This document shows positions 3,978 through 27,856 of a DNA stretch of 64,000 bases, piece after piece. How positions within the stretch are numbered: the stretch's first letter is position 1; every line of letters begins with the position of its first letter. A model generated the notes under the pieces. The model made no database searches. It saw only the letters and a list, made by a program, of their open reading frames with translations, and had not been told where the DNA came from. A program made the position numbers and the translations under genes. Source of the stretch: Pyrococcus yayanosii CH1 (GTDB lineage Archaea > Methanobacteriota_B > Thermococci > Thermococcales > Thermococcaceae); assembly GCF_000215995.1 (NCBI RefSeq), contig NC_015680.1, forward strand, positions 1,315,160-1,379,159. The letters are read 5' to 3'.

Positions 3978-6506
3978 ATGCTGTTCGTTATAAGGCCTGG
4001 AAGGAAAAAGGGGGAGCTGGAAGCTTTTGTAATTGAAAGGGAGCCTGACAAGCTCTCCCAGATGAAGAATTTGAAGGCTGACCAAATTTATCGCCTGATC
4101 ATGAGGGACGGCAGGCTCTTCAAGGTTCTTGAAGGAAGCCAGTACAGGAACCCGAAGGAAATCGAGAAGGCCCTCAGGCAGGCTAGGATAGTCCTTGTGA
4201 ACGCCGATGAGTGGGAGGACTACTTCAAGAGAAGGCTCCAGAACAAGCGTGTCGAGAAGGCCGAGCTCTGCCGTCTCTGCCTCATTGAGGGTAGGATAAC
4301 CGTCCTCACGGAGGGCAACCGGATAAAATACAGGGGAGAGTACATCTGCGAGCGCTGTGCTGAGGAGGAGCTTAAGAAGGAGCTCCGCTTCAGGTTCAAC
4401 AGTATCGCGATGTTCAATCAGGCTAAGAAGCTTCTGGAGCGCTTCAGGGACCTAGATAAGGTCCTCTACGCCTTCGACCCCCGCTTCGACCCAGCGAAGC
4501 ATCCAGAGATTACCAAGTGGGATGAGCTTGAGGCCAAGCACATAGAGGTCAGGAAGATGATGGTAGACGAGCTGCCCATCCCCAAGGAGTTCAAAGATGT
4601 TCTCAGGACGGAAGGAGTCAGAGAACTCCTGCCAGTTCAAGTATTAGCAGTCAAGAACGGGCTCCTCGGGGGGGAGAACCTTTTAGTAGTTTCCGCCACA
4701 GCGAGCGGTAAAACACTCATCGGAGAGCTTGCCGGTATCCCCAAGGCCATGCAGGGCAAGAAGATGCTCTTCCTCGTCCCCCTCGTCGCCCTAGCCAATC
4801 AGAAATACGAGGACTTTAAGCGGAGATACTCAAAGCTGGGCCTCCGCGTGGCCATAAGGGTTGGTATGAGCCGTCTAAAGGTCAGGGAAGAGCCCGTCGT
4901 CGTGGATACTGGAATAGACGCCGAAATAATCGTGGGAACCTACGAGGGCATAGACTACCTACTGAGAGCTGGCCGAAAGTTGGGAAACGTCGGAACGGTA
5001 GTCATAGACGAGATACACACCCTCGACGACGAGGAAAGGGGACCTCGCTTGGATGGCCTTATAGCGAGACTTAGAAGGCTGTATCCGAAGGCCCAGTTCA
5101 TAGGACTGAGTGCCACCGTGGGGAACCCCGGCGAGCTTGCAAAGAGGCTCGGGATGAAGCTCGTTCTTTACGATGAAAGGCCGGTAACCTTGGAGAGGCA
5201 CGTTATCATTGCGCGCAACGAGGGGGAGAAGTGGAGACACATAGCCAACCTCTGCAGGGCAGAGGCCATGAGGAGGAGCGAGAAAGGTTTCAAGGGGCAG
5301 ACGATAGTCTTCACCTTTTCGAGGAGAAGATGCCACGAACTGGCCGCTTACCTTACGGGAAGGGGCCTCAAGGCAAAGCCCTACCACTCCGGCCTACCCT
5401 ACAAGCAAAGGAAGATTACTGAGATGGAGTTCCAGGCCCAGATGCTGGACGTAGTTGTTACCACGGCCGCCCTTGGAGCAGGCGTCGACTTTCCCGCGAG
5501 CCAAGTTATCTTCGAGAGCCTCGCAATGGGCAACAAGTGGTTAACGGTTAGAGAATTCCATCAGATGCTTGGACGAGCGGGAAGACCCCTCTACCACGAG
5601 AAGGGCAAGGTCTATCTAATTATCGAGCCGGGGAGGAAGTATTCAGCTCAAATGGAGAGAACCGAAGACGAGGTGGCATTCAAGCTCCTTACCTCCAGTG
5701 TGGAGCCCGTGGAGGTCGATTGGAGCGACGAGCTGGAGCAAGACAACGTCCTGGCACATTCCTGCGTTTTCAGCAGGCTAGATGTAATCGAGGAAGTTCA
5801 GGGGATGTGTCTCGGTGCCAATCAGAGCGCCGCGAAAGTGCTTGAAAAGCTGGAGGAGTTCGGGTTCGTGAAGCTGAAGGGCAACATTGTCGAGGTAACG
5901 CCCTACGGAAGGGTTGTTAGTATGAGCTTCCTCTTACCCAGAGAGGCGGCCTTCATAAGGGACAGCCTTGGAAAGAAACCTGTCCGCTGGATTGCAGTCA
6001 AACTCCTCCCATTCGAGAATCTGTATCTGAGCGGAACGCTCCAGAGGGAGATAGAGTCGGCCGTTAGGGGTAGGATAAGCTCGAACATCTTCTCAAGCAG
6101 CTTTGCTTCCATCCTTGAGGAGCTGGATAGAGTGATTCCGGAGCTCAGTCCGAATGCGGCCGAAAGGCTCTTCACGATCTATCAAGAGTTCTTTATCTGC
6201 GAGGAAGAGGACTGCACGGAGCATGCGATGGAGCGCGTGAGCAACTTAATAATCGACCTGAGGAGGAACGGTAAAGGACCCACGGAAATAGCGGAGCACT
6301 TCAGAAAGGTCTACGGCCTGATAACTTACCCGGGCGACGTATTCACGTGGCTCGATGGCCTCATAAGGAAGCTGGAGGCCGTGGAAAGGATAGCGAGAGT
6401 GTTCAAGATGAGGGAGGTCGAGGAAGAAGCAAGGAGGCTGAAGAGGGAGATAGAGGAAGGGAAAGCCCTTTCCATTGCTGAGAAAATGAGAAAAAAGGTT
6501 TGGTAG
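3978..6506 (+). CDS. Ski2-like DExH RNA/DNA helicase with N-terminal zinc finger (ASH-Ski2-like)
   Basis: 842 residues. An N-terminal domain of about 100 residues leads to a four-cysteine zinc finger (CRLC near 95, CERC near 120), then helicase motifs: SATASGKT (motif I), VIDEIHTL (DExH), GLSATVGN (III), FTFSRRRC (IV), and a motif VI region around HQMLGRAGRP, followed by a winged helix and helical C-terminal domain as in Ski2/Hel308 enzymes. The zinc-finger architecture matches what I recall of the Thermococcales ASH-Ski2 helicase that partners aRNase J in RNA decay; assignment to that group is by architecture only. Its last two codons (TGG TAG) coincide with the 3' CCA end of the tRNA-Gln attachment sequence. 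Confidence 0.85.
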   Translation: MLFVIRPGRKKGELEAFVIEREPDKLSQMKNLKADQIYRLIMRDGRLFKVLEGSQYRNPKEIEKALRQARIVLVNADEWEDYFKRRLQNKRVEKAELCRLCLIEGRITVLTEGNRIKYRGEYICERCAEEELKKELRFRFNSIAMFNQAKKLLERFRDLDKVLYAFDPRFDPAKHPEITKWDELEAKHIEVRKMMVDELPIPKEFKDVLRTEGVRELLPVQVLAVKNGLLGGENLLVVSATASGKTLIGELAGIPKAMQGKKMLFLVPLVALANQKYEDFKRRYSKLGLRVAIRVGMSRLKVREEPVVVDTGIDAEIIVGTYEGIDYLLRAGRKLGNVGTVVIDEIHTLDDEERGPRLDGLIARLRRLYPKAQFIGLSATVGNPGELAKRLGMKLVLYDERPVTLERHVIIARNEGEKWRHIANLCRAEAMRRSEKGFKGQTIVFTFSRRRCHELAAYLTGRGLKAKPYHSGLPYKQRKITEMEFQAQMLDVVVTTAALGAGVDFPASQVIFESLAMGNKWLTVREFHQMLGRAGRPLYHEKGKVYLIIEPGRKYSAQMERTEDEVAFKLLTSSVEPVEVDWSDELEQDNVLAHSCVFSRLDVIEEVQGMCLGANQSAAKVLEKLEEFGFVKLKGNIVEVTPYGRVVSMSFLLPREAAFIRDSLGKKPVRWIAVKLLPFENLYLSGTLQREIESAVRGRISSNIFSSSFASILEELDRVIPELSPNAAERLFTIYQEFFICEEEDCTEHAMERVSNLIIDLRRNGKGPTEIAEHFRKVYGLITYPGDVFTWLDGLIRKLEAVERIARVFKMREVEEEARRLKREIEEGKALSIAEKMRKKVW

Positions 6507-6544
6507 CCCCGCCGGGATTCGAACCCGAGTCGCGGGATCCAAAG
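6501..6544. repeat. Left attachment site (attL), copy of tRNA-Gln 3' half
   Basis: Identical to 27781-27824 except A at 6528 versus G at 27808. It covers the tRNA from the anticodon loop to the encoded CCA on the minus strand, but the sequence beyond 6544 does not continue as tRNA, so this is not a functional tRNA. It encodes the residues GSPAGIRTRVAGSK of the integrase in the + frame, and the helicase stop codon lies in its first six bases. Confidence 0.92.
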
Positions 6545-7424
6545 CCCGTCGGAAAAGCCTTTATTCGCCAAATGAAGGTCTTACAGGGCTTATTTCAGAA
6601 GAAGCCATGAAAATGCCCCAACAGGCATTTCCAGCCATAGGACATGTTTTCCACAGTAGTGGTAAACAAGACTACTACAGAAGCCTTCTTCAGGTTCAGA
6701 ATCCAAACCAGTACTATGTCATCACAGAGGAAGACATCAACAGGCTCTTCCTAGAGTTCGAAGCAAAGGGGGTCACCCACTCCCACAAACGGAGCGTTGA
6801 GTACATTATCACAATGTTCCTGAAGGAAGCCACGAAAGAGAACAACGGAAGATACATTTTCACAATGAAAGACCTGAAAGAATACCTAACCCTGATACGA
6901 CAGTCATACTCCCCCTCCTTTTACCGCAAAAATATCACATACCTCAAAAAGCTCTTCAGAATCGCAGGGATAGACTTGGCAGAATCACTCAAGGCACCAA
7001 CAGAGCTTAACGTGGACCTGACCATCGTCACCGTGGATGACATCAAGAGCCTCATTCAGCTCGTTGATTCCCTCCACATTAGCAACCGTTTTGAGGACTG
7101 GAAAAGAGATCAGTTTATCACAGCAATGCTCCTAATGGCAGTGAGTGGAATGAGAGTCAGCGAACTCGAAAGGATTCCCCTGAAGGAGATTGACATTGAA
7201 AACAGGCGGATTCGCCTTAACACGCACCAGACCAAAACCAGACAGTCAAGGGTCGTCTTTTTCACGTACGAGGTTCAGGAGTTGCTAGAGGACTACATCA
7301 GATAGCCCAGTTGGGTCATTCAATTAGATATGATATCAATGCACTGCATTACTCGCATCACACAATTGAAGAAATACAAGAAATCTATGATAAAGTCTTC
7401 GGTAATCTACGATTCCTAAGATAA
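6502..7424 (+). pseudogene. C-terminal part of split SSV-type tyrosine integrase, internally deleted
   Basis: The frame is open from attL (GSPAGIRTRVAGSK, then ARRKSLYSPNEG) through residues of a core-binding domain to the catalytic domain with MRVSELERI (first catalytic Arg) and THQTKT (catalytic Lys), then stops at 7305 after DYIR. Eight bases later another frame gives IAQLGHS and, further on, NALHYSHH (GH box and likely nucleophilic Tyr), ending at 7424. Compared with XerD-like spacing, about 70 residues containing the HxxR box are missing between the two parts. The gene would be rejoined with the fragment at 27596 by excision, but the product would still lack essential residues. A translation start inside this part (ATG 6607) is not meaningful. 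Confidence 0.85.
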
Positions 7425-7544
7425 ACTTTTCCTCTCCTCTTTTTAGTTTTTATTCCAAAAATTGAGTATCAATTCCAGAACTCCGTGATGAATCATGAAG
7501 CAGAGATCCAAAAATCAAACAAAGAATTAAAGGAAAACTTAAGC

Positions 7545-8630
7545 CTATGCTTCTTTCATTATTGTGAACGTGTTAAATACATCTTTTAAGAAGTCGATTG
7601 TTTGTTCCACGGCTTTTTCTTCATCCCTGAGCCATGAATAATTAAATTTCAATACTTCAAGGGCATTAAGCAGGAGCTGAAGATTTGATGCCATGTCCAA
7701 ATACAATGAATCATATTCATGTAGGACTTTCCAATTGACAAGTTCAAAGTCATTTTCCATTTTGGCGTCATACCTAGCGTTAATGCGATAAAATTCAGCA
7801 CTCACGTTATCCGTGTAATTAACTACCTCATCCATTTTTAACTTCACAACTTTCTCCCCAACCCAAGTAGGGTCAATTGTAAAGTACCTAACGTGTTTTA
7901 ACGCTTCCTCAAGCCTCAAAAACACATCATCCGGAATATCCCTTATGATAGGAACATTTGTAAACTCAAACCTCACAGGTTTGAACAACCCTTTTCCCGG
8001 TCTTCGTGGCTGTGTTATCCTAATTGGAACAAACCTGAACAGTAAATCCGAAGGAGCAATTCGCGAGATTGGAACGATTTTGTAATTATCAAACCTCTCC
8101 AACGTTTCCCTTCCCCAATTATGACGATATTGCTGTTCAATAACCTTAGTCTTCTCTTTAACACTCCTCACAACTTCATAGAGATTTTTTAAATGCAAAT
8201 CTTGAACTACAATAGGCTCACCAATCTTGCCAAAGATTGCATGAATCAAAGATGTTTTTCCAACTCCCTGACTACCAAAAATCAAAATCCGAAATTTTGT
8301 AAATCTTGCATACATTAGTGCAATTGCCACGATTTCATGCGTTGAAATCCGCCAGCCAAAACTTCTCAACTTCTTGAATATCTCAAACTTTAAATCATAA
8401 TAACTTTTGATGTCATTTAAATCAACTGTAACAACATTAGCACGCACTATCCTGTATGTCCGGGGATTTTCAGAAACTAACTCTACAGCTCCTTCTTTAA
8501 CTAATTCTTCAAGTGCCATTGTTAGCCTCTTACCACTCTTATTGGTAGCTTTCATAATTTCATTCCTAGTGGCAACGTCTACTTGGGCAAGATACTCTAA
8601 AATTTTAGACTTGAGTCCAGCTGATGCCAC
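7545..8630 (-). CDS. Winged-helix/P-loop ATPase of the element, possible replication or partition protein
   Basis: 361 residues. Residues 1-65 look like a winged helix (ILEYLAQVDVATRNEIMKATNKSG as HTH, then a wing). Residues about 110-125 hold a Walker A motif, IFGSQGVGKTSLIHAIFG. A clear Walker B with DExx is not evident; VVQDLHL shortly after the P-loop may be switch-like. The rest is alpha-helical and matches no family I recognise. It sits beside the AT-rich iteron-like region at 8749-9016, the kind of place where plasmid initiator genes lie, so a role in replication or its control is possible but only inferred from position. A regulator-ATPase is an alternative. Confidence 0.6.
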   Translation of the reverse strand: MASAGLKSKILEYLAQVDVATRNEIMKATNKSGKRLTMALEELVKEGAVELVSENPRTYRIVRANVVTVDLNDIKSYYDLKFEIFKKLRSFGWRISTHEIVAIALMYARFTKFRILIFGSQGVGKTSLIHAIFGKIGEPIVVQDLHLKNLYEVVRSVKEKTKVIEQQYRHNWGRETLERFDNYKIVPISRIAPSDLLFRFVPIRITQPRRPGKGLFKPVRFEFTNVPIIRDIPDDVFLRLEEALKHVRYFTIDPTWVGEKVVKLKMDEVVNYTDNVSAEFYRINARYDAKMENDFELVNWKVLHEYDSLYLDMASNLQLLLNALEVLKFNYSWLRDEEKAVEQTIDFLKDVFNTFTIMKEA

Positions 8631-9329
8631 ATCTCACACCACCACTGCGACGTAGCACAAAAAGAAATTAAATTTAGCTTTTCACGTGTTGATTAAAACC
8701 AACGCCATTCAAAACTCTATTGTCAATTTATCCTGTTGTCATTACTATTTTTGGCAAAAGAAAATCTCGACACTGTTTGGTACGCTTTGGCAAGCCTTGG
8801 CACGCTTCTCTCCCCAATTAATAACTAACTAATAAATAAATACAAACAAAAAATAAAAATCCTAAATATTGTTTAAGTAAACATAATAATAAGTAACAAA
8901 TATTTAGAATTTCAGAATTGTTTATTTATTATTTATTTTTATTATGTGGACCAAAAGTGCCAAAAGCTCTAAATTCCTAATTCTCCAAGCATTTATTACC
9001 AAACTCGTGCCAAATGGTGATTCTTCCTTTAAAATGAAAAACAATGTCTAAAATATCCTCATTCAACCGAAACTCTGACGAAAGGTCTATTCAATAAACA
9101 AAGAGCTTAAGGATGATTTCAGCTTTTACTGGGTTAACTTATCTTGAAACTTTAAAACAAGGGTTTGGTATGGAGAATTTCTCATTAAAACGTAGCTACA
9201 TCGAGAACAGTCAACACAATAATTCAATCACAAATGACAAACACACTCACAAATAAACAACCACTTCCAATGATGGAATAGAAAAAGTAAAGATTAAATG
9301 CAACGATTCAGTGAAAAAATTAAAGAAAA
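8631..9329. other. Gene-free AT-rich stretch holding the iteron-like boxes
   Basis: About 700 bases with no convincing gene on either strand. The part from 8815 to 8945 is almost pure A and T. TTTGGCA-type boxes lie on both sides of it (see the separate entry). From 9020 to 9329 I see only scattered AT-rich sequence and no strong hairpin. Confidence 0.7.
8749..9016. repeat. Iteron-like TTTGGCA boxes flanking an AT-rich core (candidate origin or operator)
   Basis: Three tandem 10-bp units at 8776-8805 (TTTGGTACGC, TTTGGCAAGC, CTTGGCACGC) and a related TTTTGGCA at 8749-8756 lie on one side. On the other side the reverse orientation occurs as CCAAAAG at 8951 and 8960 and CCAAA at 8999 and 9010. 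Between them is about 130 bp of very AT-rich DNA. Direct repeats next to a melting-prone segment and a wHTH-ATPase gene suggest a replication origin or a cluster of regulator sites. No experiment or homology supports it here. Confidence 0.5.
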
Positions 9330-9674
9330 TCAGAGAAGATCAGCACTTGAAAAGAGCTTGACTGCAACAAGCTGTCTAACATCTGTGGAGTAGACTTCTA
9401 TCCAATCCCTTCTATGCTCACTAGTTAAAAATAACAAATGCGCCTTATCTCTGAATTTTCTCTCAATCAGTAGCATTTCAAAGAACTGAATTATTACTCC
9501 AGCGAATTCATCATCGACTCTCTTTAACTTTCTCCTCTTCACAATATCTCTTAACTCTTCTCGCGTGCAGCCCTTAACCCTAAGCCGTTGCGAAACAGTA
9601 TCGAATTCAAAGACGAGGAAATACTCAAACGACGTCGTCATCCAGACATCCCTCTGATCTGACAAAATATCCAA
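9330..9674 (-). CDS. Hypothetical protein of the element
   Basis: Up to 114 residues; the ATG of residue 12 (near 9641) is the likelier start because GAGGG lies upstream, while the frame's first codon is TTG. The protein is soluble, with mixed charged and aromatic residues and a basic patch around KRRKLKR. I do not recognise a family. It stands alone on its strand between gene-free AT-rich DNA and the divergent gene at 9786, and shows no overlap with neighbours that would argue for an operon. Codon choice is AT-rich like the rest of the element. A small DNA-binding or regulatory role would be a guess. Confidence 0.45.
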   Translation of the reverse strand: MDILSDQRDVWMTTSFEYFLVFEFDTVSQRLRVKGCTREELRDIVKRRKLKRVDDEFAGVIIQFFEMLLIERKFRDKAHLLFLTSEHRRDWIEVYSTDVRQLVAVKLFSSADLL

Positions 9675-9785
9675 AAGGAGAATAAATTTAGCTGAAATCT
9701 CATTAAATCAACAAATTTAATACGCACTACATCAACTTTCAAACAGTGCCTATTTATGCCTTCATTTTTCTTGGAGGGGGTTCTT

Positions 9786-12036: not shown

Positions 12037-14326
12037 TTATTCTTTGACAGACTCGATTATCCACTTTAGGGCCTCTTTGAAGTCCTCTTTTTCTTTGTCT
12101 ATGTCATAGAATTTGATTCCATAGGGAGTGTTTGGTTCAACATGCTTTCCTATCTCTATTTTTGGCGCTTCGAATTTTAGTTTCTTGTTTTCTTTTTCAA
12201 GCTTGTTTTCAATGAATCCGTCTCCTAAAATCCAGGCTAAAGCTTCCCAGTCGTTGTAGAAGTACTCCATTAGGAGGGGTATTATCTCGTAGTACCATAC
12301 AAAGTGCAAGTCTTCCAACTTTTCCACCTTCAAGAAGTAGCTGTGGCCTATCCTGTGGTCTCTGTCCTTGATTGCCTCGATTTTGAGATTCAGCTTTTCA
12401 AGTAGCTCTTTCAGGTTTATTCCCTCAATGCTCTTATCTTTTAGTTTTTCTGGTCTGGGTTCAATCTCAAGAAACGCAAATCTCCTCCTCAGTGCAACGT
12501 CAAGCAGCGCAATGCTTCTGTCTGCAGTATTCATTGTTCCTATGATGTAGAGGTTCGGCGGGACTGCAAAGGGTTCTCCTGAATATGGGAGAGTTACAAT
12601 TATTTCGTGTTCTTCTCCTATGCGTTTGTCATTTTCGAGGAGAGTTATCAGCTCGCCAAAGATTTTACTGATATTACCACGGTTAATTTTGTCAATGATA
12701 AGGTAGAACTTGGGAGCATCCTTGAAGATGTTTTTTCTGTCTTCTTTGGACAGCGATAGGAGTTTTTTCCATAACTTTTTCTTGAGCTCATGGTATCTTC
12801 TGTAATCTCTTACAGCGTCTTGTTTTAGGTAATTGGAAAGTTTGTCAAGTTCATCGGCAAAAGTCTTCAAATGATTCTTTGTGCTTTTTGAGAGCCTCAA
12901 CAATAGCCCTAAGAGCCATCTTCTTGAAAATTCCATCTTCAACCACATAGGCAATATTCTCCCCTTGGCTGACTGGCCTAAAGCCCTCAACGAACTCCTC
13001 ATAGCTGTAAGACTGATGAAAGGTTACAAAGTCCCACCTATTTTTGGGTTTATCTTCATCCGTTTTGTCCTTGACATATTCCTTTGCCATCCACGTTTTT
13101 CCGGTTCCTGGCGGACCGTAGAGGATGATTTGGCCCTTTCTTTCTAGCAATCTATCCATTAGTTGTTTGATATTCTCTGGGAGAGAACTTTCTCCAGTTT
13201 TTCTGTTTTGGTATTTGCTTAGATAATAGGCTATCTCAATCATATCTTCAATCCCAAGTTCTTTTCTAACTTCATTTGTAGCTTTAAGGAACTCTACAAA
13301 TCCTTCAATATCCCAGTGTCCTCCCCAAAATCGCCTTAGTTTAATCCTCTTCCTCAAGCTCTCGGAAAATGGAGCATTGAATGGTGAGTCTTCTCTCTGT
13401 TTATGCCATGTTGGCATGAAGAATTTCCAATTTACAATACTCATCCAACTGGTGGCTTTTGAAATGCCAAAACCTCCAAGCGTATCGTCGTCCTTTATTT
13501 CTCTGAGAATTTTGGCAATTTCATCAATTTTTTCTTCGAAATTGTTCTCATTGACATCAGCAGCTGTTTTTATTAGCTTTTTAAATAACCTGTGATTAAG
13601 AAAATCAGAGTAGTCGGCTGTGGCACTGGTATCAAACAGCTTGAGTTCTGGAGGTAAGTTCATGATCCTATTTTTTATTTTCTCGGCTTCATCAGGCGTT
13701 ACGTCTCTTTCTTTCAGAAGTATCGTTTTTATGTCTTCCAAAATCTCGAGTAGTTTCTTTCTGTTGTTTAACCACTCACTTTCGTATCTGGCTTTTAATT
13801 CTCTTAACACTTCTTTAAGCGCCGTTTTATCAACAATTGGCATCATCTCCGCCTCCAAGAACTCTTTTAGGTATGGCAAAAGCGTTTCATAGAGAAGCAC
13901 CATTGTATCAACGGCCCATTCAATGGCATCTTCATTTAATTCGTCATATTCTCGAAAAATCGTGATCCATTTCCAAGTTCTTTGGGTTGTTTTAAGACTT
14001 CCTTTCGCATCCTGTGCCAGCTTTTTAAAGTCTACACGTTGTCTTAAGAATTCAAAAAGATTCTGATTTCTATTTTTAGGATATTCCAAATGAAGTGCAA
14101 CTTGAACAAGGATTTTCTCAACTTTTCTTTTTGGAATGAGCCATTCAAAATGAATGTAACCTTTCACAGTCTTTGAAAGATCTGGGGGCAGATATAATTT
14201 TCTGTAGATGTCCCTCTTTCCTTCTCTTATCTCTTTTACTTGGGTCTTTGAAATACTTAGATGTTTCTCTTTGGCTCTTTCTAGAAATTTATCTCCAACT
14301 TTCTCTAAAAACTCACGGAGATCCAT
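12037..14326 (-). pseudogene. mcrB: McrB-like AAA+ GTPase, frameshifted and with altered Walker B
   Basis: Two overlapping frames make one protein of about 760 residues. The first (14326 to 12851) has a long N-terminal recognition region and Walker A GPPGTGKT near residue 404, and stops shortly after ESFEDF. The second continues with ADELDKLSNYL and carries Walker B, the NTADRS signature and the ALRRRFAF sensor/arginine region. Removing one T from the four-T run (bases 12859-12862) restores a single frame. Walker B reads LIIDKINRGN, where the family has DEINRGN, so the catalytic Glu is Lys (codon 12688-12690). Known McrB needs GTP hydrolysis for translocation, so cleavage is probably lost even if the frame is restored. 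The start overlaps the preceding gene and has AGGAGGAG upstream. Confidence 0.85.
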
Positions 14327-18093: not shown

Positions 18094-18246
18094 TCATTTC
18101 TTTTTATTCCTTTGTGATAAGTTACAAACTTCAGCCGCTATTTCCAACAGGGCATACCAAAAGGATCTCCCAAGTAGTAAAAGGAAAAGCAAGAGCACAA
18201 CCCAAAGCAAAAAGCCACCTATTATCTTGATTAGCTCCATGATCAT
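18094..18246 (-). CDS. 50-residue single-span membrane protein
   Basis: A short gene of 50 codons starting MIMELIKIIGG, with one strongly hydrophobic segment (about residues 8-27, FLLWVVLLLFLLLL) and a basic tail NKKK. Its ATG overlaps the TGA of the ADP-ribosylglycohydrolase gene in ATGA form, and it ends 12 bases before the TPR gene. Tight placement in the operon makes it a likely real gene. Small membrane proteins in defence operons may act as membrane anchors or pore-forming effectors; nothing in the sequence decides this. A second ATG two codons on (18240) is also possible. Confidence 0.65.
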   Translation of the reverse strand: MIMELIKIIGGFLLWVVLLLFLLLLGRSFWYALLEIAAEVCNLSQRNKKK

Positions 18247-19187
18247 TTCTGCCGCCCAAGAAGGCTGTCAATGAAGGCGTTGATTATCCCTCCAGCGTAA
18301 TCTCTCGCTTCGATCCTCTCAAGCCACTCCCCTGGAATAGCGTCAATTCCATAATACGTCCCAGCCAAGCCGCCAGTAACAGCCCCAGTAGTGTCAGCAT
18401 CCTCCCCAAGGGAAACCACTTCCTTTATTGCATCGGCAAAGCTCTCGTTCCTCAGGAAAGCCCAGAGGCTTGCCTCAAGAGTATGGACGACATAACCACT
18501 TCCCCTGATCTCACTCTGCTCTACTTCGTGAATTCTCCCGCTCAAGATTCTCTCATAGTGAGCGAGCTCCTTGGCAAATGATTCCCTTGAGTAGTACTTT
18601 TCCGCTGTCTCTATTGCTTTATGATAAGCTTCAAGCTTGTCCATTCCATCAAGAATGTTCCACACGGTCAAGGAGTAAATGCTACAGCCGATGAGTGCTC
18701 TGGGATGAGCATGAGTAATCATGGAAACAATAAGCTTAAGCCTTTCCTCCAAAGAGTTGAGCTTGAAGTAAGCATAATACGTTGCTGGCAGGATTCTCAT
18801 CAGCGAGCCGTTGCCGTTATCCCACTCTCCCCTGCCGCCAGCCTCAAGCGGCGGAACCCCATTGGCAATGCGCTCTATTGCTCTCGATGTTGTGTTTCCT
18901 TGGTCAAATGTATAACCTCTCGGTGTGAATTCGCCGTCATAATACCAGCGGAGAAAGTTCTCTGCAATCCTCTCAATGCTGTAGCCTTCTGTCAGTGCTT
19001 GGGCAGTTGCCAGAGTTAAAGAGGAGTCATCGCTCCACAAGCCATCAAGCATTGGAATTTCCTTGGGTTTTGGATAATTCAATTCCATCGCAAGCCTGCT
19101 GGTGAACTGGAAGGTTAAGCCGAAAGCATCTCCAACAAGGACTCCCCAGAGACCGCCCTCAAGTCTTGAGCGGAGCACATTCACCAC
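18243..19187 (-). CDS. ADP-ribosylglycohydrolase (DraG/ARH family)
   Basis: 314 residues, full length. The di-metal motifs of the family are present: WSDDSSLTLA near residue 47, GNGSLMRI, THAHPRA, and EDADTTGAVTGG near residue 255. Enzymes of this fold hydrolyse N- or O-linked ADP-ribose from proteins, and some act on nucleic acids or free ADP-ribosyl compounds. The start is a GTG at 19187 or 19184, overlapping the end of the cyclotransferase gene. Its presence among nucleases suggests reversal of an ADP-ribosylation, for example neutralising a toxin or acting on modified DNA. No ADP-ribosyltransferase gene was recognised in the window. Confidence 0.9.
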   Translation of the reverse strand: MVNVLRSRLEGGLWGVLVGDAFGLTFQFTSRLAMELNYPKPKEIPMLDGLWSDDSSLTLATAQALTEGYSIERIAENFLRWYYDGEFTPRGYTFDQGNTTSRAIERIANGVPPLEAGGRGEWDNGNGSLMRILPATYYAYFKLNSLEERLKLIVSMITHAHPRALIGCSIYSLTVWNILDGMDKLEAYHKAIETAEKYYSRESFAKELAHYERILSGRIHEVEQSEIRGSGYVVHTLEASLWAFLRNESFADAIKEVVSLGEDADTTGAVTGGLAGTYYGIDAIPGEWLERIEARDYAGGIINAFIDSLLGRQK

Positions 19188-19522
19188 CCTTCAAATTCGA
19201 CATCATCAAAATCCCCGCTTTCCATCTTCTTCCCACTCGGCTCATGTGCCCATTCCCAAAGAATCGCCCTGCCAAACTTTGTATCCACTTCAACTGGCTT
19301 GTAGCCAGCATTCACTTCCATGCGGTTAATCCTCTCGAATGTTTCTTCATCAACTTCATAGACTTCAACCTTCAGTCTCCCTTCACCCTTAACGGCGTAA
19401 GGAAGGACGTCAACGTAAAGGTCGTAACCCTCAATCCAGTCCTCACCAAGGAATTTACTCTCCCTTAAATAGTCGTGCAACGGTTTGCCTTTCCTCAAGG
19501 TGCCGTAAACTGCTATTATCAT
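19181..19522 (-). CDS. Gamma-glutamylcyclotransferase/AIG2-like protein
   Basis: 113 residues, the usual size of a single AIG2-like domain. The signature YGTLRKGKPLHDYL at the N-terminus forms the loop that binds gamma-glutamyl groups, and VYEVDEETFERINRMEVNAG carries the conserved Glu region expected for the catalytic acid. Family members convert gamma-glutamyl amines or peptides to 5-oxoproline plus the free amine. It overlaps the amidotransferase gene upstream by an ATGA junction and the ADP-ribosylglycohydrolase downstream, so the three are translated together. The actual substrate is unknown. Confidence 0.85.
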   Translation of the reverse strand: MIIAVYGTLRKGKPLHDYLRESKFLGEDWIEGYDLYVDVLPYAVKGEGRLKVEVYEVDEETFERINRMEVNAGYKPVEVDTKFGRAILWEWAHEPSGKKMESGDFDDVEFEGW

Positions 19523-20484
19523 CTTTCCTCCCTCACAATCAGTTTGACTATTGCTTCTCTGTGATTGTTTATTGCAACTCCATTCTCGGTTATTTTCAGG
19601 AGTCTTAAGTCCACAAGTCGCTTGACTGTCTCGTTGACCTCAACGCTCTCTCCGTTCAAAACTGCTCTGAGGACTTCTATGGCTTCGCTGTCGAGCATTG
19701 GCTCGATTTTCCTACCAATCTTAAGCAGTAAAGCACCGTCCCTGAAGATGTAAAGCTTCTTTTTCTCAAGCTTTTCCCAGTTTTCGTCTGTGAGCTTTTT
19801 TGTTGCCACAAGGTATGCATACTCATCCTCGGCTTTTACATCTCCAATTGAAACTTCAAAGTCCTCGTCAAAGAGCCTTGCATGAGATTTGTGCGGCGGA
19901 TGGCGCTTCAGCAACCACATCTTATTCCGTGGGTGATGGTGATATGCAAAGAGGTATCTCCCGTTGCTTATCAGAACGTTTAACGTTCCATAATCGCTGA
20001 GCTCGTTCAAAAGCTGGTAGAGTTTGGTGAAGAGTTCTCTTATTGTTCCTATTCCCTCCAAGTTCTCCATTATGTAGCAGAATGCTGCTTCTGAATCAGT
20101 TGTTCCTAAGGGCTTGAAACGCTTAGGCAGTCTATCAACACCGTCAAGCACTCCATTGTGGGCGAAAATCCACTCATCGTACTGCCTAACGCTCCAAATT
20201 CTCCTCACGAAGGGATGAGTGTTCAGATAGTTGATTTCACTTGTGGCGTATCTAACGTGGCTTATGATGACTTGGCTCTTTATGTTAAGCTTTGGGGCAA
20301 TTCTGCTTTTGTAGGCTGGAATAGGTTGCTTTACCAGTGAAGCGGCCCTTTTTCCGTTGGCAGCTGTTAGATACCATCCAACGCCCCAGCCGTGCGGATT
20401 AAGCTTGCCTTTCCTTACAAAGCCCTGCCATGTAAAGTTGACATCTACCTTTTTGTTCGCGTTAACGCCAAAAAGCTCACACAT
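19519..20484 (-). CDS. Class II glutamine amidotransferase-like Ntn hydrolase (YafJ/EgtC type)
   Basis: 321 residues. Cys2 directly after the initiator Met (MCELFGVNA) is the expected N-terminal nucleophile. Further motifs include PHGWGVGWY, HVRYATSE, the oxyanion region FAHNGVL, and GTTDSEAAFCYI. There is no synthase domain, so the protein likely works as a hydrolase of glutamine or gamma-glutamyl compounds, as EgtC does, or with a partner. A C-terminal segment of about 80 residues resembles a small winged-helix. GAGGTG precedes the ATG, and the upstream nuclease gene ends 10 bases away. With the cyclotransferase next to it, two gamma-glutamyl-handling enzymes sit together. Confidence 0.88.
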   Translation of the reverse strand: MCELFGVNANKKVDVNFTWQGFVRKGKLNPHGWGVGWYLTAANGKRAASLVKQPIPAYKSRIAPKLNIKSQVIISHVRYATSEINYLNTHPFVRRIWSVRQYDEWIFAHNGVLDGVDRLPKRFKPLGTTDSEAAFCYIMENLEGIGTIRELFTKLYQLLNELSDYGTLNVLISNGRYLFAYHHHPRNKMWLLKRHPPHKSHARLFDEDFEVSIGDVKAEDEYAYLVATKKLTDENWEKLEKKKLYIFRDGALLLKIGRKIEPMLDSEAIEVLRAVLNGESVEVNETVKRLVDLRLLKITENGVAINNHREAIVKLIVREER

Positions 20485-21873: not shown

Positions 21874-23790
21874 TCACTTAACTTCCACAATTGCAGAAAC
21901 CGGAATGCTGACGCCTGTTATGAAGGCGTAGCCTGTTTTTAGGTCTGAGAGCTTTTCAATTATGTCTCTTGATGCAGATTCTATTGAGCTTGTAATTGCA
22001 TCAAGATCACTCTTATTCACGATCCTGAACAACACTTGAGTGTTCATCTGGGATAACACGTACTTGGAAACCTGAGCTGGCCTCTGGCTGATGACCACCA
22101 AGCCAAGTCCAAATTTTCTCCCCTCTGATGCAATTTTTTGGGCATAAACCTTTGCGAGATTGCTCTTACCTGCTGAAGCCTCGCCGTATCCTCTTTCCGG
22201 GGCAAAATTGTGAGCCTCCTCAAGAACAACGAGGCTGTTGAAGTCTCCCGAGTTCTTTGCCTTGATAAAGAGCTTCCTGAGGATATAGCCGGCGATTTCA
22301 GTTCTGACCTCTGGACTGTCAATGTTCCGCAGGTTGAAGACCACAACCTTCTTCGTAGAATTGTTGATTGCTGAGTTAATCTTTTCAAGAACCTCTCCCT
22401 GATTGTTAAGAGCATCATCCCCAAACTCTTCCCTGAGGAAGTCCTCGATTCCAATGTTCCCAATTGCATTAAAAAGTCCCTTGCTGACCCCACCCAAGCC
22501 TGCACTTTTTGTCCATTTTGATATGGCCGCAGCAAGTGCTCTACCCTCATTGGTTCTCTTGTTTATTATGAATCCGTAGTCCTTAAGAAAGTCCTCAACC
22601 TTATCCGGGCTGAAGAAGAGCACGGTGTTTGGGATGACGACTTCTTCGAAATCCTCGAAGCCGAAATTCATGAAATCTTTTGCATACTCCCCGTGGGGGT
22701 CTAAGACGTAGATGCTGTTTAGGTGTTCACTTGCCCTTGTAATGAACTTCTTTGCGAAGTAGCTTTTTCCAGAGCCGGTGGTTCCCAAAATTGCCAGGTG
22801 CTTTGACCTGATCTCATCCAGATTGATGTAAGCTTCGATATCGCTGCTAGCAAAGACGCCGATATAAATGTTCTTTTCACCCTTCAGTAGCAGCCCGTGC
22901 AAATCTTCTCTCTTTGCCTTTCTCACCGGAATGCCAACTTTAGGTGGCATCAAAGACGGCTTCAGATTTTTTCCATCGAGATATCCGAGGATTTTTGCCG
23001 TTGCGATGCACACATTGCTATCCTTCTGATTTAGATATGCGATTAAAGCTGCCATCTGCCATTCTTTAACTTTTTGACCATCGAAGATGAACTTGAACTC
23101 GTTTGGTGAGGGAAATAGAATGCTTCCTTTTTCCTGCGTAAAGGGATTGAGGAAGAACCCCATATTCCAGCCTAGGATTTTGTTAACCCTCGCTAGGTAT
23201 TTTCTGCCTTCACTGTGGAAGACAAGAAAGCTCCCTTCGAAGACTTTTGGGTCATCAATCAGGAGAATCTCAATTGAGTCTGAACGGCTCGGGTTTGAAA
23301 TAAATCCCACTATGTCATCATCGGGGATGAAAATTCTGCCGTGGGCAACTTCAGCGTTCCAAATTTTGTAAAAGTACTCCCTGAGCTTCTGAACTTCTTC
23401 CCTCTCTTCGACGAGCACGGCAGTTTCAACGTTACCCTCGCTGGGAGAGAGCCCGCTATGTGTTATATTTGCCGAGCCTACAATGGCGTATTTTTCATCA
23501 ATGACTATGAATTTGGCATGCAGGTTGCTGTGGAAAGCCATTGAGATGTCAAGTTTGCCTTTGTAAGATTTTAACAGCTTAAAAACTTCACTTTCTGTAA
23601 TCTGCAAATCCCTTGGCTCGTTTACTCTCAGAAGGACTTTCAGCTTAATCCCTTCTTTTGCACTGTTCAGAACTGCCTGAATTCCTTGGGGAGTAATCCA
23701 TGCTGAGCTTATCAAAATTTCGTTTTCTGCCTGCTTTACATGCCCAACAATTGTATCCAGAATTTCATGTGAGGGAATAATTCGCACCAT
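21874..23790 (-). CDS. PLD nuclease-HerA/FtsK-like ATPase fusion
   Basis: 638 residues. The N-terminal domain (1-155) is phospholipase D-like with one HKD motif, H91-x-K93-x4-D98, and the usual GSANITHSG. A middle beta-rich part leads to a HerA-type hexameric ATPase: Walker A GTTGSGKS at 336-343, Walker B VVLEEAH at 521-527, and the conserved SQRPAQVSKYVLSQMNTQ. HerA proteins pump or thread DNA, and the PLD domain would cut it or bind nucleic acid ends. Fusions and pairs of HerA with nucleases are known in anti-phage systems. It has its own promoter region (AATAAATAA upstream, GGTG before the ATG at 23790) and stops about 165 bases before the operon's first gene, on the same strand. Confidence 0.82.
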   Translation of the reverse strand: MVRIIPSHEILDTIVGHVKQAENEILISSAWITPQGIQAVLNSAKEGIKLKVLLRVNEPRDLQITESEVFKLLKSYKGKLDISMAFHSNLHAKFIVIDEKYAIVGSANITHSGLSPSEGNVETAVLVEEREEVQKLREYFYKIWNAEVAHGRIFIPDDDIVGFISNPSRSDSIEILLIDDPKVFEGSFLVFHSEGRKYLARVNKILGWNMGFFLNPFTQEKGSILFPSPNEFKFIFDGQKVKEWQMAALIAYLNQKDSNVCIATAKILGYLDGKNLKPSLMPPKVGIPVRKAKREDLHGLLLKGEKNIYIGVFASSDIEAYINLDEIRSKHLAILGTTGSGKSYFAKKFITRASEHLNSIYVLDPHGEYAKDFMNFGFEDFEEVVIPNTVLFFSPDKVEDFLKDYGFIINKRTNEGRALAAAISKWTKSAGLGGVSKGLFNAIGNIGIEDFLREEFGDDALNNQGEVLEKINSAINNSTKKVVVFNLRNIDSPEVRTEIAGYILRKLFIKAKNSGDFNSLVVLEEAHNFAPERGYGEASAGKSNLAKVYAQKIASEGRKFGLGLVVISQRPAQVSKYVLSQMNTQVLFRIVNKSDLDAITSSIESASRDIIEKLSDLKTGYAFITGVSIPVSAIVEVK

Positions 23791-27595: not shown

Positions 27596-27824
27596 ATGCA
27601 AAGACGAAAAAATGGTTCGAACTTAGAACCTGAGAGATGGGTCACGGGACACAAAAATGGTCTCGCGACCCATTATGAAGAAGCGCCAGAAGAGAAGTTT
27701 CCAGCCAATGGGCTTGAGTTCTTCATGGAATTGTTCGGTAGGGCTATGGGAGCAGTGTTTAGAGAAATTGCAGGGCTCTATGGTAGCCCCGCCGGGATTC
27801 GAACCCGGGTCGCGGGATCCAAAG
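27596..27824 (+). pseudogene. N-terminal part of the split SSV-type integrase
   Basis: From ATG 27596, preceded by GGTGG, 76 codons run into the right attachment site and encode GSPAGIRTRVAGSK from tRNA sequence, exactly as in the left fragment and in the same frame. Joining base 27824 to 6545 restores one gene. Beyond 27824 the frame only reads host tRNA sequence to 27871. TTATTAATA at about 27543 can serve as its promoter. The fragment alone lacks all catalytic residues. Confidence 0.85.
27781..27824. repeat. Right attachment site (attR) inside tRNA-Gln
   Basis: Same 44 bp as 6501-6544 with one difference (G at 27808). It covers the anticodon loop to the CCA end of the intact tRNA gene, so integration keeps the tRNA functional on this side. 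Confidence 0.92.
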
Positions 27825-27856
27825 TCCCGCATGCTTGGCCGCTACACCACGGGGCT
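27781..27856 (-). tRNA. tRNA-Gln (UUG)
   Basis: 76 bases on the minus strand with encoded CCA. The acceptor stem pairs AGCCCCG with CGGGGCT, the anticodon stem CGGGA/TCCCG holds the loop CTTTGGA with anticodon TTG, and the T arm CCGGG-TTCGAAT-CCCGG is canonical. TTTTTAAACC at about 27880-27890 is a suitable TATA box. It is the integration target of the island. Confidence 0.95.

Follow-up and report, generated by a model that had tools for sequence, protein, structure and literature searches.

Origins of the iteron type consist of tandem repeats and an A/T-rich unwinding stretch, adjoin the gene of their initiator and are autoregulated. At archaeal chromosomal origins (oriC), opposed initiator boxes are placed round an A/T-rich core, and the initiator combines a winged helix-turn-helix (wHTH) with a P-loop. 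The replication loci described for spindle-shaped viruses are of MCM, primase/helicase or rolling-circle type (PMC12934983), and the pT26-2 plasmids are described as having yielded no ori consensus (PMC6972569). The integrated island PYG1 of Pyrococcus yayanosii CH1 (1321661-1343016, 21,356 bp, tRNA-Gln, 43-bp repeats; PMC5126054) is, according to a review, an element without an identified replication module (PMC8371274). Its genetics in print comprise excision and the phenotype of its deletion at 100 °C and 80 MPa, and excision is reported together with circularisation (PMC5126054). One of its genes, PYCH_15120, is termed a hypothetical protein in the same source (PMC5126054), and among the papers listed from the open-licence literature (supplements excluded) there was none on a replication role for this gene or for the DNA boxes described here.

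We analysed a stretch of 64,000 nt (the window), which corresponds to G000:C1:1315160-1379159 of the host genome, a single contig of 1,716,818 bp. Coordinates are those of the window unless stated otherwise (offset in the contig 1315159) and are collected in Table 1. By its coordinates, the integrated element is taken to be the published island PYG1. The open reading frames inside it fit the published sizes and order (for example 361, 468 and 689 aa), the complete tRNA-Gln occupies 27781-27856 at its right end, and an exact repeat of 27 bp is found at both ends (6501-6527 and 27781-27807). Upstream of PYCH_15120, on this mobile island, lies a group of short boxes that we consider probable to be the PYG1 replication origin (8750-9014), with the 361-aa protein as its initiator and with a probable second function as autoregulation site.

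Table 1. Position of the PYG1 features discussed in the text.
Feature	Position	Strand	Description
Integrated element PYG1	6502-27857		21,356 bp; between partial and complete tRNA-Gln; published coordinates minus offset
Tyrosine integrase, broken (taken as PYCH_15110)	6607-7305	+	Pfam PF00589, 3.1e-10
Candidate initiator PYCH_15120, 361 aa	7545-8630	-	N-terminal winged helix and P-loop GSQGVGKTS
Left outlying box TTTGGCA	8750-8756	+	From sequence; kept in G086 and G089
Left tandem array, 10-bp spacing	8766-8802	+	Units at 8766 (decayed), 8776, 8786, 8796
A/T-rich core, candidate unwinding element	8812-8946	none	85% A+T
Right pair 1	8949-8964	-	At core edge; GACCAAA 8949-8955 and TGCCAAA 8958-8964, 9 bp apart
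Right pair 2	8997-9014	-	TACCAAA 8997-9003 and TGCCAAA 9008-9014, 11 bp apart
Conserved non-coding block	9151-9215	none	Box TTTGGTA at 9164; 58/67 columns invariant, three relatives
Companion gene (PYCH_15140 by order), small protein	9330-9674	-	No family match; order and direction kept in G086, G089, G060
Companion gene (PYCH_15150 by order), 141 aa	9756-10181	+	Homologues in G086, G089, G060

A first-pass annotation of this DNA had described one outlying box and three tandem 10-bp units on the left. All of them are present, the tandem units reading TTTGGTA (8776), TTTGGCA (8786) and CTTGGCA (8796), and a further, decayed unit had been overlooked, which reads CTCGACA in the window, CATGGCA in G086 and CTTGGCA in G089. 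The four reversed boxes that it placed on the right are found as well, the first of them (at 8949) with its last base off consensus; their spacing of 9 and 11 bp within the pairs and 48 bp between them had escaped notice, as had the identity of the element with PYG1 by coordinates. Between the two groups it had seen about 130 bp of nearly pure A/T. This is indeed where the 130 bp of highest A/T content in the whole window begin (8816, 88.5% A+T), but the purity was slightly overstated, given the composition of the core in Table 1.

The pattern YTTGGYA occurs 8 times in the 699-bp intergenic region (5 on the plus strand, one of which is the separate box at 9164, and 3 on the minus strand) against 0.54 expected, a number reached in none of 2000 dinucleotide shuffles of the region. 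A tandem triple with at most one mismatch is found once in the genome, at the boxes, and its reversed control not at all. A loose 10-mer with 2 mismatches shows no enrichment across the window (190 matches, 177 expected), and exact TTTGGCA is mildly enriched window-wide (17 vs 9.3 expected). The box signal is one of clustering, phase and orientation. The locus thus shows two features by which iteron origins are recognised, direct repeats phased beyond chance and, beside them, an A/T-rich region with predicted unwinding. The extremes of the detrended GC skew of the element lie at 12,894 and 24,541, away from the boxes, in a curve confounded by gene direction. We reject the locus as chromosomal oriC, the one PF09079 (Cdc6_C) match of the genome being at 1,428,075 and not in PYCH_15120. 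The conserved non-coding block beyond the right boxes also holds a GAGAATTTCTC palindrome; Rfam gave no match over 8600-9750, this block included, up to E 0.5.

Next, we examined the distribution of the gene. Its family, an orphan combination of wHTH and P-loop, is present in 6 of 94 Thermococcales genomes (E <= 1e-5), with identities to PYCH_15120 of 89% (G086), 64% (G089), 56% (G060), 56% (G077) and 51% (G049). G086 is taken to be T. barophilus MP with its island TBG1; the published identity of the 361-aa protein to its T. barophilus counterpart is likewise 89% (PMC5126054). Weak hits from an HMM search of 115 genomes were confined to positions 5-51 in G097 and 9-72 in G068.

All five loci whose upstream region is complete show the box layout ahead of the wHTH/P-loop gene. 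To score it, we derived a matrix of 7 columns from the boxes of the window, G086 and G089 (26 in all), G060 and G077 remaining outside the training set, and looked for three boxes at 10 bp, a reversed 9-bp pair and a reversed 11-bp pair, with the distances between these groups free within 120-279 and 38-59 bp. The scan covered both strands of 372,597 bp, that is the window and 16 further stretches (L040, 4.4 kb, left out), with companion-gene loci of genomes devoid of the initiator included as background. Ranks 1-5 were taken by the five complete initiator upstream regions (window 78.0, G086 76.3, G089 65.2, G060 45.6, G077 27.2); the next-best place scored 23.6, so that the margin of G077 is modest. 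The layout score was reached by 1 of 5000 shuffles for G060 and by 0 of 5000 for G077, in a test that was not blind, since both sequences had been viewed by eye before the spacing rule was fixed.

Individual parts of the layout differ in strength. Pair 1 and pair 2 are 48, 48, 48, 47 and 48 bp apart in the five loci, where 38-59 was allowed, and the 9-bp spacing of pair 1 recurs in G060 and G077. For G077, the tandem array taken by itself is weak, with p 0.06 in 200 shuffles. In G049, whose locus is truncated by the contig end, the left array alone gave 0.017 (1000 shuffles). In each of the five complete loci, the 100 bp of highest A/T content in the intergenic stretch fall between the two groups of boxes, the core exceeding the rest of the intergenic region in A+T (82/66% in the window, 85/67% in G086, 77/66% in G089, 66/61% in G060, 73/64% in G077); the core is mildly A/T-rich in G060 and moderately so in G077.

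Among the close trio (window, G086, G089), 55/64 columns of the left boxes are invariant, against 67/150 in the core (8809-8943, 26 columns gapped). The right pairs reach 18/27 (pair 1) and 15/24 (pair 2), and the flanks 47/54 (8691-8744) and 87/133 (9018-9150). Conservation of the left boxes clearly exceeds that of the core, whereas that of the right pairs is moderate and no better than in some flanks. A DNA search with 8600-9330 in 94 genomes found full-length matches beyond the window in G086 and G089 alone; 7 other genomes, and one more place each in G000 and G089, gave pieces of 23-42 bp, mostly A/T-rich. The best piece, in G078 (L044 ~1501-1536; 36 bp, 86%, E 9e-5), corresponds to 8735-8770 and contains one box; it is an isolated stretch, and the genome lacks the initiator. 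Judged from sequence, the comparison strengthens the origin reading beyond what the single locus would suggest, and an iteron-like origin with its initiator gene, as the first-pass annotation proposed, appears to be the best reading of a layout kept upstream of the gene in all five loci.

The tandem triple (<=1 mismatch) was detected in 7/94 Thermococcales genomes (reversed control 1), of which G000 and G086 alone carry the gene; exact copies are present in G017 and G088 as well, both without a neighbouring gene of this kind. The right-pair pattern alone (<=1 mismatch) hit 21/94 genomes, its reversed control 29, and is useless singly. The contig G017:C2 (L062, 3629 bp) shows CTGGCA followed by three TTGGCA in 10-bp phase at 425-460, without any wHTH/P-loop gene; its size is presumably similar to that of plasmid pTN1. 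The earlier remark that no archaeal plasmid family is known to use the box has to be qualified by this contig. No homologue of PYCH_15120 was found in plasmid and phage searches, and peptide patterns, which reach relatives that share them, found none in GTDB-220 contigs and viral contigs, sets from which this genome itself or near ones may be missing. The plasmid search itself works, another PYG1 gene having matched T. barophilus plasmid NC_015471. A free plasmid carrying a gene of the PYCH_15120 type was thus absent from the searches made.

The adjoining gene had been described as encoding a wHTH and a P-loop. Family searches agree, Pfam and NCBIfam giving just wHTH and P-loop/AAA hits, all below curated cut-offs. 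A PHROG family of MarR-type wHTH is matched by all six members (best 7e-10), and the wHTH matches of PYCH_15120 go to families of transcription regulators (TrmB, MarR). No known Rep family is among the NCBIfam and Pfam matches listed (in one Pfam listing 25 of 38 families). Weak hits to PHROG families of replication initiation were obtained with phrog_428 (1/6 members, E 0.006), phrog_678 (2/6, 0.0099) and phrog_270 (1/6, 0.037). Searching the PDB by sequence gave a best E of 0.059, and two AlphaFold models from a 6-row alignment are poor (mean pLDDT 54 and 48), with the winged helix alone confident. In 15 other element ORFs (16 scanned in all; 18243-19187, 19181-19522 and 19519-20484, which are named metabolic genes, and the smallest ORFs lay outside the scan) there was no significant match to a replication-initiation family, and the matches of the 16 included no HUH/Rep endonuclease as expected of a rolling-circle replicon.

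An ATPase gene beside phased repeats on a mobile element could also belong to a partition system, with the boxes as a centromere-like array for segregation, the protein as plasmid-maintenance ATPase and, conceivably, the small companion gene (Table 1) as adaptor. However, no ParA-type, actin-like or tubulin-like family appears among the matches listed (25 of 38 families in one listing). The Walker A motif of ParA is KGGxGKT, that of PYCH_15120 GSQGVGKT, and reversed arrays round an A/T-rich core suit an unwinding element better. A partition site is therefore a distant prospect in our judgement.

By analogy with iteron origins, we propose the following sequence of events. The winged helix of PYCH_15120 would bind the TTTGGYA boxes, the 10-bp phase of the left array allowing several protomers to load on one helix face, and the reversed 9-bp and 11-bp pairs on the right would anchor a second assembly. 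ATP-bound complexes would then melt the A/T-rich core lying between, host replication proteins would be recruited, and the excised island could replicate autonomously. Since in six loci the left array precedes the start codon of the initiator by about 120-175 bp, the same binding may repress the initiator gene.

Repression could in principle be the whole function. The boxes would then be an operator, at which a wHTH/P-loop regulator forms a looped repressor across the A/T region and controls its own or the companion gene; the similar distance of the left array from the gene start in six loci and the kinship of the wHTH to the regulator families named above are in keeping with this. Yet the boxes extend as far as about 385 bp from the gene, with the 130 bp of highest A/T content in the window enclosed between them, and an excising element would be left without recognised initiator if the protein were a repressor alone. 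It is, moreover, unusual for a simple repressor to be a P-loop NTPase whose C-terminal region is long and conserved. We consider a mere operator improbable and regard an origin that probably doubles as an autoregulation site as the better reading.

Comparison with G086 yielded dN 0.058 and dS 0.467 for PYCH_15120 (dN/dS about 0.12), so that this intact gene encodes a protein under constraint. The initiator of G086 is about 65% identical to that of its congener G089, which is lower than its identity to the window protein of another genus (89%). This relatedness is at odds with that of the hosts and suggests that the module moves horizontally, as expected for a mobile element. The part of the integrase at 6607-7302 has a dS of 0.057 against G086, compared with 0.467 for the initiator; these neighbours appear to have differing histories, i.e. 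modules were exchanged.

The integrase is damaged. In comparison with the 363-aa ORF of G086 and the 424-aa ORF of G089, it is devoid of the stretch with HxxR, presumably the catalytic motif of the enzyme, and its C-terminal part (HYSHHT..., 7305-7425) is in another frame. This damage fits the very low published circularisation and the excision observed in a delta-int strain; it conflicts with the published requirement of int for mini-island integration. In G089 (L009 14547-15821), the integrase ORF, inspected by eye, extends upstream across the tRNA-like attachment sequence and includes a segment resembling a ribbon-helix-helix domain, so that the integrase gene may contain the attachment site there.

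The broken integrase raises the question of whether the window carries a former true origin, now a dead relic in a trapped island, a reading compatible with origin function in the family as a whole. The circular form of PYG1 was measured at 1.2e-8 per 16S copy, which is very rare (PMC5126054) and gives no sign that the island is amplified once excised. One tandem box has decayed, and the McrB-like gene of the island is divided over two frames (it is called a pseudogene in PMC5126054). The initiator, on the other hand, is intact and under the purifying selection described above, and the other eight boxes are recognisable. We consider a dead relic rather unlikely, though not negligibly so.

Published data on T. 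barophilus are also adverse. Marker-frequency analysis there reported a single active origin, oriC at 1,671,000, and with oriC deleted no origin was detectable (PMC11005403). The close relative of the box region in G086 is located at 1,630,505-1,631,240, about 40 kb from this oriC. With oriC the sole origin detected, the integrated module is not visibly firing in T. barophilus, if the strain used keeps TBG1. This result, the rarity of circular PYG1, the lack of a free plasmid in the searches, the GC skew and the mild A/T richness in G060 can be reconciled equally well with an origin that is silent or limited by its host and with a site that is no origin, and they keep our confidence in the origin from being higher.

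The order integrase, initiator, boxes, small gene and 141-aa gene is common to the window, G086 and G089. This proximity of the integrase gene would also suit boxes that serve as accessory sites for integrase or excision factors. However, G060, where initiator, boxes, small gene and 141-aa gene occur together, has a different integrase nearby (25% identical) and still possesses the layout, as does G077; besides, the boxes are about 2.2-2.5 kb away from the left att repeat. It is very improbable that they are integrase sites.

The small companion protein is found in 10/94 Thermococcales genomes, 6 of which are devoid of the initiator, and has no match in G077; neither it nor the 141-aa protein had a match in the plasmid search. 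By eye, at least two companion-only loci (L019 and L021, of the set L019-L025) hold a 134-aa relative of the 141-aa gene. Companion genes perhaps mark a wider family of integrative elements. Other PYG1 cargo includes McrBC-like, glycosylase, TPR, ADP-ribosylglycohydrolase and transposase genes, a HerA-like ATPase with PLD-type domain and an AbiE-like pair, the names of AbiE and of the metabolic genes being those of PMC5126054. The HerA-like ATPase (21874-23790) carries its PLD-type domain N-terminally in one protein, with NCBIfam HerA and DrmC/NucT hits below cut-offs, and is likely defence cargo.

If the origin reading is true, an island described as devoid of any identified replication module would have one, and an origin of 0.3 kb with a 361-aa initiator would explain how the island persists after excision and how such islands spread between Pyrococcus and Thermococcus. 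It would also add one more type to the poorly known archaeal plasmid initiators and provide a small new replicon for hyperthermophile vectors. Both P. yayanosii (PMC5126054) and T. barophilus (PMC11005403) can be transformed by published methods, which makes the reading directly testable in both hosts. A bolder reading is that PYCH_15120 founds a new class of archaeal initiators, a compact wHTH and P-loop ATPase unrelated to Orc1/Cdc6, MCM, PrimPol and rolling-circle Reps, which would drive replication of defence-carrying integrative islands of Thermococcales by opening a core held between a 10-bp-phased array and reversed pairs at fixed 9/48/11-bp spacing. Taken as a whole, we advance it tentatively, doubts weighing at least as much as the arguments in its favour.

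How the locus relates to described systems can be stated part by part. Members of the pT26-2 family resemble PYG1 as Thermococcales plasmids that integrate at tRNA genes and have a P-loop Rep (t26-22p), often with the origin beside rep (PMC6972569). Unlike PYG1, the P. yayanosii member in the family's table is placed at tRNA-Gly and none at tRNA-Gln; t26-22p, in which a large P-loop domain is described at the centre, between short domains of no detectable similarity and with no wHTH reported, also differs from PYCH_15120 (PMC6972569). Viral MCMs of Thermococcales are similar in that a proposed origin-binding N-terminal wHTH is fused to a motor domain (PMC12934983), whereas PYCH_15120 has just 361 aa and no MCM family among its matches listed (25 of 38 in one listing). 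The Sulfolobus plasmid pRN1 is likewise a mapped archaeal replicon with a wHTH-bearing Rep, but its proposed origin is a stem-loop, explicitly without iteron structure (PMC4234260).

Closer likeness in layout is found at archaeal oriC (ORB boxes, Orc1/Cdc6), where opposed boxes also flank an A/T-rich core and the protein joins wHTH and P-loop. In contrast to Orc1/Cdc6, PYCH_15120 has its wHTH at the N-terminus and no Cdc6_C match, and no TTCCANTGGAAA-like site (<=2 mismatches to the ORB consensus) is present between 7740 and 9894. From the iteron-type theta origins, PYG1 differs in that PYCH_15120 has no significant match to a known Rep and in that its repeats, only about 7 bp long on a 10-bp phase, are opposed across the core. 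With the iteron-type origins of bacterial and haloarchaeal plasmids it shares tandem short repeats, an A/T-rich stretch, an adjacent candidate initiator gene and probable autoregulation (cf. PMC4980987).
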